From a virus: a stretch of DNA of 31,095 nt. A model generated the notes under the pieces. It saw only the letters and a program-made list of their open reading frames with translations, ran no database searches and had not been told where the DNA came from. Below, piece by piece: positions 29,147 through 31,095 of this stretch. Every line of letters starts with the position of its first letter. Positions within the stretch are counted from its first letter, which is position 1. The translations under genes and the position numbers were made by a program. The DNA lies in IMG/VR virus record IMGVR_UViG_3300024262_000160, positions 1-31,095 of that record, one strand, 5' to 3'.

Positions 29147-30434
29147 TTATCTACCTCTTCTTTGAAACAATGGCATATCTGGAATAGTTGCAGTTAATCC
29201 GTTGTCTAGCGCCCAACATAAGTAACCTAAACAATCTGATATATGAGTAAGCATAGCATTCTCACCTTTTTGGTCAAGCTTGTTATCTTTCCATGCTACT
29301 TTCTCTAAATCATTGATAAGCTTTCTGCACTTCGGATCAATTATAATTCTACCAGCTTTCAATAGTCTATTAATATTATTAACCCGATCATTAACAAAAG
29401 GATTTGTCACGCCTTTAATAGTGAATCCAGCATCTTTTATTATTTGGAAGTCTGTAAAGCCCGAAGTCTTTCTATTTTTGCCTGTGCTATCTGGATATAC
29501 ATAACCACCAGCATATCCGCGTTTAGATAGTTCACTCATCATTTTAGGTGTATCACTATTTTCTTGATAAACTTCATCAAATATATGAAAGCAGTTATTA
29601 ACCATTGAGCATTGAATAGATGTCATTGGATGAACATTAAAATCCATTCCTATTAAAACACTGCCAGGCATTCTTTTAACTGACTTAACGTGAATATCTC
29701 TATCGAACTCATAGTAGACTTGGCCATCATCAGCATCGCTATATAAGCCTAGCAGGAATCTCTCTCTTTTATCCTCAGGCATTTCTTCTAATATCTGTAA
29801 ATAATCCTCATCAATATTCTCTAGGTTATCCATAGGATTCATTCGTATCGAAACATAGTCTTTTCTATTAACGGGTTTTTCTTTTTCTGGGTCGAAATGT
29901 CTTTCCCATAGCCAATATGCCCAATGGATTTTTGTTGCAGGATTCTGATCATAATAAAATTTATTCTTTAATGAGTTCTTTTCAGCTAATCTAGTCTTAG
30001 CAGTGTTGATCGCATGATAACTAATCTCTGAACACTCATTGAAATATATAGTTGAATACTCTTGACCTAATATTTTCTCTACTCTTTCTTTATCATCTAA
30101 ACCACCTATCCATATCTTAGACTTATTAGGTAGAGTTATAAAAAAGTCTGATCTATTCCATTTAATAGGTAAGTCAGGAAAGCAAAGATTGAGGACATCA
30201 GGCAATGTCTTTAACCATATAGATTTTTTAGCAGCATTGAATTTACTTCTTAATATACAATGAGTACTTTCAACTTTAGCAGCCCTAACTATAATTGCAT
30301 AAATAGCGATAAAGGTTTTTCCAGAACGAGAGTCAAGACCCACCGTATAGCATGACGTTCTTCGCGCCAGATGCTAACAGTGAGATAGCCTCCTTCTGTT
30401 TTAATGTTTTGTTAAATGGCTCTGGACTAGACAT
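29147..30434 (-). CDS. terL: Terminase large subunit, interrupted in its P-loop by 7 nt
   Basis: ATG at 30434 gives 33 residues (MSSPEPFNKTLKQK... NVMLYGGS) and then TGA at 30335-30333. The rest of the motor is read in the +1 frame from there to 29147. Skipping 7 nt gives a 426-residue protein with Walker A GGSRSGKT (31-38), an IYFNE Walker-B-like segment, and nuclease motifs GMDFNVHP, VYPDS and HISDCLGY. The first part is normal for a terminase N-terminus, so a GTG at 30343 is unlikely as the true start. The disruption may be bypassed, inactivating or an assembly fault; see the separate entry. Confidence 0.8.
30329..30338 (-). other. Candidate ribosomal bypass site (UCU-UGA-C-UCU) in terL
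   Basis: On the minus strand 30338-30329 reads TCT TGA C TCT: a Ser codon, an immediate stop, one base, the same Ser codon, then CGT TCT GGA AAA ACC (RSGKT). A jump from the first UCU to the second skips 7 nt (TGACTCT) and restores YGGSRSGKT exactly. A +1 slip instead gives GGSDSRSGKT, which breaks the GxxxxGKT spacing. Bypass, mutation or assembly error cannot be told apart from one sequence. Confidence 0.45.
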
Positions 30435-30963
30435 TCTTCCAGCTTCTTCCTGTTTTTATATTACATATAGTTGAGTGGTTAACTCCAAAATCATTTGCTA
30501 TAGATAGTTGAGTATCTCCCTTAAACAGTCTTTCTTTAATAATTAAAACTTTATCACTATTTAATATGGCCATAGGGTGGTCATTCCCTTTTCGATATTT
30601 AATTAAGTTATTATCCACAGCATGAATATGGTTTTCTCTGTTTGTAGCCCATTCTAAATTATTTACATTGTTGTCTGTTTTTATACCATTCTTGTGATTA
30701 ACTTGCTTTTTATTGTGCTTATTAACTATAAACGCTCTAGCTACTAATCTGTGGACTTTTATAGTCATACCTATTTTGTTCACACTAAGCCGCATTCTTG
30801 CATAACCTTTTTTGTCTAAACAATTAGTCATAATCTTTTCTTTTATAGGCAGAGGGTATCCATGTTTTCTGTCAATCACTCTGGCCAATGATTTAACTCT
30901 GCCTAGATTAGACACTTCGTAAAAACCCTTTATCTCTGGCAAAGTTTTCCAAATTTCAATCAT
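30427..30963 (-). CDS. HNH homing endonuclease with NUMOD4 domain (178 aa)
   Basis: Residues 4-28 (IWKTLPEIKGFYEVSNLGRV) are a NUMOD4 segment. HNH catalytic residues appear as H71 (VHR), H90/N92 (NHKNG) and N102 (NNLEW), and residues 131-176 form an HTH DNA-binding tail (TQLSIANDFGVNHSTICNIK). It is free-standing between terS and terL: its ATG overlaps the terS stop (ATGA), and its last codons overlap the terL start by 8 nt. It is therefore a clean insertion rather than part of an intron. It probably cuts an uninterrupted terminase allele to spread. Confidence 0.9.
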   Translation of the reverse strand: MIEIWKTLPEIKGFYEVSNLGRVKSLARVIDRKHGYPLPIKEKIMTNCLDKKGYARMRLSVNKIGMTIKVHRLVARAFIVNKHNKKQVNHKNGIKTDNNVNNLEWATNRENHIHAVDNNLIKYRKGNDHPMAILNSDKVLIIKERLFKGDTQLSIANDFGVNHSTICNIKTGRSWKNV

Positions 30964-31094
30964 AAATCAACATCCTGCTTATCAATCTTAATACTAATAT
31001 CCCCAGAATGTTCCACATCTTTTTTCTCACCATAGATTTTATGAAAGCGAGTTTTGAGAGCAAAGATTAAACATGCAGTATCAGACTTTCTTGG
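30960..31094 (-). CDS. terS: Terminase small subunit, partial (N-terminus cut by window edge)
   Basis: The last 44 codons are visible. CLIFALKTRFHKIYGEKKDV is the hallmark C-terminal segment of phage small terminases (xLIFxLKxRxPxxYGxxxxVEHSG), followed by EHSGDISIKIDKQ and the stop. The TGA overlaps the HNH start. It recognises the packaging site; the HTH domain lies outside the window. Confidence 0.8.
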   Translation of the reverse strand, partial: PRKSDTACLIFALKTRFHKIYGEKKDVEHSGDISIKIDKQDVDL

Positions 31095-31095
31095 A

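Follow-up and report, generated by a model that had tools for sequence, protein, structure and literature searches.

How does a virus make its terminase when the Walker A loop of the only terL gene found is cut by a stop codon? The window examined here comprises positions 1 to 31,095 of virus record IMGVR_UViG_3300024262_000160, and the interrupted gene lies on its minus strand, downstream of a homing endonuclease gene (Table 1). We present evidence that the interruption is a real and recurrent feature of a terL family. We consider it likely that TerL is made by a programmed stop-hop of 6 or 7 nt whose site is carried in a mobile HNH cassette.

The interrupted terL gene

From its ATG (30434-30432, minus strand), terL begins MSSPEPFNKTLKQKEAISLLASGAKNVMLYGGS and runs into UCU-UGA-C-UCU, the single C being at position 30332. 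The codons CGT TCT GGA AAA ACC (RSGKT) follow, within a frame that stays open without interruption over 394 residues from the second UCU and matches Pfam Terminase_3 (2.9e-15), Terminase_6C (2.3e-8) and Terminase_6N (4.1e-8). The preliminary description, made from this sequence alone, had placed a stop between two UCU codons in the P-loop and had noted that a hop restores the motif while a +1 shift adds two residues. Reading of the frames bears it out on both counts, since skipping 7 nt yields GGSRSGKT and a +1 shift yields GGSDSRSGKT. Sixteen other loci are broken at this very place, and we therefore reject a chance origin. A second intact terL, proposed there as evidence to look for against recoding, was sought; none besides the interrupted gene turned up in the window's record, and the records of five further insert-bearing viruses likewise gave no second terL of the family. 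No tRNA genes were found in the window. Upstream, the stop codon of a gene in the terS position overlaps the HNH start; in relatives, the same kind of ending comes before terL or HNH.

Table 1. Features around the interrupted terL gene, in window coordinates
Feature	Position	Strand	Details
terL first reading frame	30333..30434	-	33 residues ending YGGS, then UGA stop
Candidate take-off codon UCU (Ser)	30336..30338	-	UCN at take-off in 16/16 inserted lineages
UGA stop, immediately 3' of take-off codon	30333..30335	-	Read from sequence
Extra 7 nt TGACTCT (equivalent placements possible)	30329..30335	-	Missing in uninserted relatives
Candidate landing codon UCU	30329..30331	-	UCN at landing in 15/16 inserted lineages; L026 has UUU
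Second terL frame (from SRSGKT), coding for the ATPase motor and nuclease domains	29147..30331	-	Pfam matches
RNA hairpin	30322..30398	-	-32.0 kcal/mol, dinucleotide z -4.63
NUMOD4 + HNH_3 homing endonuclease gene, 178 aa	30427..30963	-	Pfam, PHROG
3' end of gene in terS position, cut by window end	30960..31095	-	Sequence; ends KKDVEHSGDISIKIDKQDVDL

Recurrence and selection in the terL family

A second-frame search of viral contigs returned 54 loci, and further scans brought the family to about 107. The insert is present in 17 of these (16 lineages), always at one and the same position in the Walker A loop, with about 10 changes of insert state on the terL tree. What had been described as a single 7-nt case is therefore one of 17, most of which have a 6-nt in-frame layout, TCN-TAA/TAG/TGA-TCN (14 loci: L004, L009, L016, L017, L018, L019, L020, L024, L026, L032, L044, L058, L063 and L118), while the 7-nt form, TCY-TGA-C/A-TCN, occurs in the window, in L002, which shares its TGAC, and in L064. 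All three stops are used. Related terL genes, suggested earlier as a comparison, do without the extra nucleotides, and the loop is uninterrupted in every uninserted member of the family with the sole exception of L190.

When the whole collection was scanned for the 6-nt form (GGN-GGN-TCN-stop-TCN, then GKT), 14 stretches matched, 12 belonging to this terL family and two being chance, and when further P-loop contexts were scanned in the viral collection, every new match was due to chance. Cultured phages (INPHARED) include no close relatives, the best identity being about 30-32%, and the insert-bearing loci are all from uncultured viruses, except for L118 in a Bdellovibrionales bin.

The inserted lineages are down to 60-75% identity and have kept intact ORFs of about 390 aa as well as the exact place of the insert. 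Their second frame is open in all loci but L118 (that of L026 ends at the contig edge), and the N-terminal residues are broadly common with those of uninserted TerL. In the comparison of L016 with L017, both inserted and differing by 15% in DNA, dN/dS was 0.20 before the stop and 0.06 after it. The two frames jointly encode one conserved protein and each is intact and selected; the relaxed selection and further breaks of a pseudogene are not the pattern seen here (dN/dS 0.06-0.2).

A pseudogenising insertion and an assembly fault had both been raised in the preliminary description, and we set them aside because the insert recurs in 17 loci with downstream ORFs that are unbroken and held by purifying selection. 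An error in assembly or sequencing is scarcely credible: the window itself was judged from its assembled sequence, but an insert at this point is also carried by 16 loci that come from many different metagenomes and, in one case, from a bacterial bin, and one of the 16 has the same TGAC. A scar of homing or repair that inactivates terL, leaving genomes that are defective or helper-dependent and sequences that are transient, would agree with the link to HNH genes and with the patchy distribution on the tree. We nevertheless hold it to be very unlikely, given the divergence of lineages with intact ORFs, the low dN/dS before and after the stop, the retention of a clade of inserted alleles and the conservation of the insert's place and of its serine codons.

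Serine codons and the proposed stop-hop

The candidate take-off codon stands beside the stop in the inserted lineages, and a landing codon that the same tRNA could read follows in all of them but that of L026 (Table 1). AGY occurs at neither position, whereas it encodes the same serine in 14/73 uninserted relatives (Fisher p=0.009 for rows that are not independent). The two codons lie within the UCN box in 15/16 lineages but are identical in only 5/16, third-base mismatches being common. Of the matched-codon bypass proposed in the preliminary description, the short bypass stands as the best-supported reading and the match holds at the level of the UCN box; exact codon identity and the view of a single 7-nt case do not hold. 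GGG was the first Gly codon in 7/16 inserted against 6/75 uninserted alleles.

In the proposed mechanism, the ribosome would read 33 codons to YGGS and stall there, peptidyl-tRNA(Ser) being paired with UCU while UGA occupies the A site. This tRNA would then release, the mRNA would slide forward by 7 nt (6 nt in most relatives), and the tRNA would re-pair with the second UCN codon, so that reading would resume at CGU and give GGSRSGKT with normal Walker A spacing. The codon-stop-codon layout within nine nucleotides is found in 14 loci, and the window has one extra base. We favour a UCN-to-UCN hop because it is the sole route that restores the conserved loop length in the 6-nt and the 7-nt class alike. 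As hops in engineered systems tend to be inefficient, little TerL may be made; TerL is required in few copies, however, and an inefficient hop may therefore suffice.

Recoding without a hop would need readthrough in the 6-nt class and an RF2-like +1 frameshift at UCY-UGA-M in the 7-nt class. UCU UGA C in the window does resemble the prfB frameshift site, with its sense codon, UGA, C and G-rich sequence just 5' (here GGUGGG), and the +1 shift stays open in 3/3 7-nt alleles (SDS, SDS, SES). Both events would lengthen the loop by two residues, to GGS-X-S-RSGKT, a length seen in no uninserted relative, the broken L190 apart. Two separate mechanisms would moreover be required, L004, L018 and L058 use UAA, as a rule the least leaky stop, and UCN on both sides of the stop would be left unexplained. 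Nor is anti-Shine-Dalgarno pairing just 5' of the take-off codon stronger in inserted than in uninserted alleles (p=0.94). Taken singly, readthrough was rejected for the 7-nt alleles, including the window, which are out of frame with the downstream ORF, and a frameshift of the prfB kind was rejected for the loop length it gives and since it cannot serve the 6-nt alleles. We regard recoding without a hop as unlikely.

An RNA hairpin at the site

The site lies in the 3' arm of a hairpin that none of 200 shuffles equalled in stability; its z against synonymous shuffles is about -5. In its core stem, positions 30384-30372 pair with 30352-30339; the 5' arm lies in the K-Q-K-E-A-I-S-L codons, and the 3' arm contains GGU GGG together with the insert and landing codon. 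Across the family, the mean synonymous-shuffle z was -2.7 in inserted alleles (n=16) against -0.65 in uninserted ones (n=75; p=1.3e-5), and it was near 0 in 11 windows placed downstream.

Inserted alleles have in common AAGGAGGCT, at a fixed place 17-20 codons 5' of the take-off codon, and AGGAGG itself is present in 9/16 of them against 2/75 uninserted alleles. In many alleles AAGGAGGCT pairs with the stop and landing region, and the codons after the motif pair with GGN GGN. A main role as a Shine-Dalgarno sequence was rejected, as no start codon stands at a fixed distance and the motif forms the 5' pairing arm of the hairpin. RNAalifold on a plain MAFFT alignment of the alleles gave no consensus structure, since the pairing register shifts between lineages; the loop varies among them as well.

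The hairpin probably assists the hop: once re-formed behind the ribosome, it would make a forward slide more favourable than a backward one, a role that we infer by analogy and in which it could act like the 5' stem-loop of T4 gene 60. It could also stimulate readthrough or frameshifting. Inserted alleles with an HNH gene have a mean z of -3.6, those without one -1.5 (p=0.075 against uninserted alleles), and the hairpin is absent in L016 and L026. Since it is weak where HNH is missing, its role may belong with the cassette and not with decoding.

The hairpin also bears on whether the 6-7 nt are removed before translation, either at the DNA level or from the RNA, by cutting and ligation that the hairpin directs. 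In several alleles the fold puts the insert near an internal loop, as such a removal would have it, but neither pairing register nor loop is constant, and we know of no phage or bacterial RNA-removal system that excises 6-7 nt. We judge removal to be highly improbable.

A homing endonuclease gene beside terL

The gene upstream of terL, a feature unstressed in the preliminary description, encodes an HNH endonuclease (Pfam NUMOD4 7.7e-15 and HNH_3 6.7e-8; PHROG_59 HNH endonuclease 1.1e-47), and in the window its stop overlaps the first terL codons. An HNH gene adjoins terL in 9/16 inserted against 4/67 uninserted lineages (Fisher p=1.7e-5). When the tree was reduced to independent pairs, the link ran in one direction, about 4 to 0, and with a median p of 0.125 is not significant alone. 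In inserted alleles the HNH ORF ends 67-98 nt upstream of the landing codon. The proteins do not form one subfamily (32-61% identity, that of L004 being unrelated to the others).

In three pairs of close relatives, one with and one without the insert, the N30/C200 identities were 0.54/0.88, 0.58/0.85 and 0.68/0.84, whereas pairs of the same state with like C identity were 87-100% identical before the insert. The jump in identity is located at the insert in all three pairs. This exchange of terL exactly up to the insert looks like a homing-type signature, the pattern expected if conversion took place around a P-loop cut, and the HNH enzyme would be the one to make it. The arrangement is that of an intronless homing cassette, with an HNH gene beside an interrupted site and mostly missing in uninserted relatives. 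The putative cleavage site in uninserted terL would coincide with the position of the insert, which would protect its carrier and spread by homing together with the HNH gene and the first terL codons. The insert may also outlast the loss of the HNH gene; L016 has the insert without HNH and L017 has it with HNH.

On the whole, we lean towards a natural stop-hop family in which UCN-stop(-N)-UCN is skipped in Walker A with the aid of a hairpin and in which the insert would serve as a mobile HNH protection mark in at least 16 lineages, making it the first natural in-frame bypass element and smaller than any other known.

HNH-like genes or matches were also seen near the uninserted terL of L085, L089, L106 and L068; these may cut at another place or represent an earlier stage. 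Uninserted L084 combines a strong hairpin (z about -3) with an HNH match lying further upstream, and could have lost the insert.

Comparison with known systems

To our knowledge, efficient programmed bypassing on bacterial ribosomes has for decades had essentially one example, T4 gene 60. Like terL, that gene is an important phage gene with a take-off codon directly before a stop and tens of codons after the start, a matching landing codon, a 5' RNA structure, an HNH gene upstream and an insert that is missing in relatives. The differences are also clear. The terL insert is 6-7 nt and mostly in frame, against 50 nt in T4; its codons are serine UCN rather than glycine GGA; its hairpin lies 5' with the site held in the 3' arm; and it sits in a Walker A motif in many lineages rather than in a topoisomerase in one. 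Bypassing of the gene 60 kind also has a nascent-peptide signal. In T4, the 5' stem-loop is thought to favour forward movement by refolding behind the ribosome (PMC5009743; PMC11194080), the gene adjoins the defective HNH gene mobA (PMC3014915), and the 50-nt insert may have protected against the nuclease (PMC5009743).

Synthetic constructs have shown that 9-nt stop-hops yielding one residue work, and a 2016 review listed in-frame stop hopping as without known natural occurrences (PMC5009743). As far as they are described there, the E. coli +6 stop-hops (Weiss et al. 1987, cited in PMC5009743) resemble the terL site in that matched codons flank a stop and nine nucleotides give one amino acid, but they were reporter constructs, whereas terL is a natural sequence in which third-base mismatches are common. 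Short gene inserts that are skipped in translation and thought to be mobile also occur in Magnusiomyces capitatus mitochondria, with 81 inserts in 12 genes, mitochondrial ribosomes and relaxed decoding, in contrast to one site in one gene family here. Streptomyces phage Hau3, likened by description, has a suspected short bypass in a terminase gene (PMC5009743); it is tied to a UUA codon and host decoding, while the terL site is tied to a stop and an HNH gene.

Our search of a limited collection of papers found none that joins terminase, bypassing and homing in such a manner. Natural short stop-hops were anticipated from engineered constructs, and the terL hop, which the sequence data suggest, would be the first known natural jump this short. 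The family offers about 16 natural variants of a minimal site, with three stops, several Ser codon pairs, 6 or 7 nt, and HNH present or missing, and with this set, rules for take-off, landing and the hairpin can be tested directly. The family also suggests a general way in which a homing endonuclease may settle beside an essential gene with neither intron nor intein, by means of a tiny insert skipped in translation. Gene callers will miss or mis-start each insert-bearing terL.

Other observations in the family

L190 (IMGVR_UViG_3300020045_011719, about 1983-2003) has its P-loop broken by one surplus base near the stop-hop site, which is either an error or another recoded allele. In L118 (JAGRAG010000058.1), a further frame break lies near residue 301; the presence of this insert-bearing terL in a Bdellovibrionales bin may indicate the host group. 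Two family terL genes, L003 and L071, lie on IMGVR_UViG_3300025652_000060 (65 kb), perhaps two joined viruses. Finally, L009 contains at about 984-1275 a highly repetitive stretch, either a tandem repeat gene or an array, in which all three frames are open and are respectively Gly/Ser/Trp-rich, Gly/Gln-rich and Arg/Val-rich.
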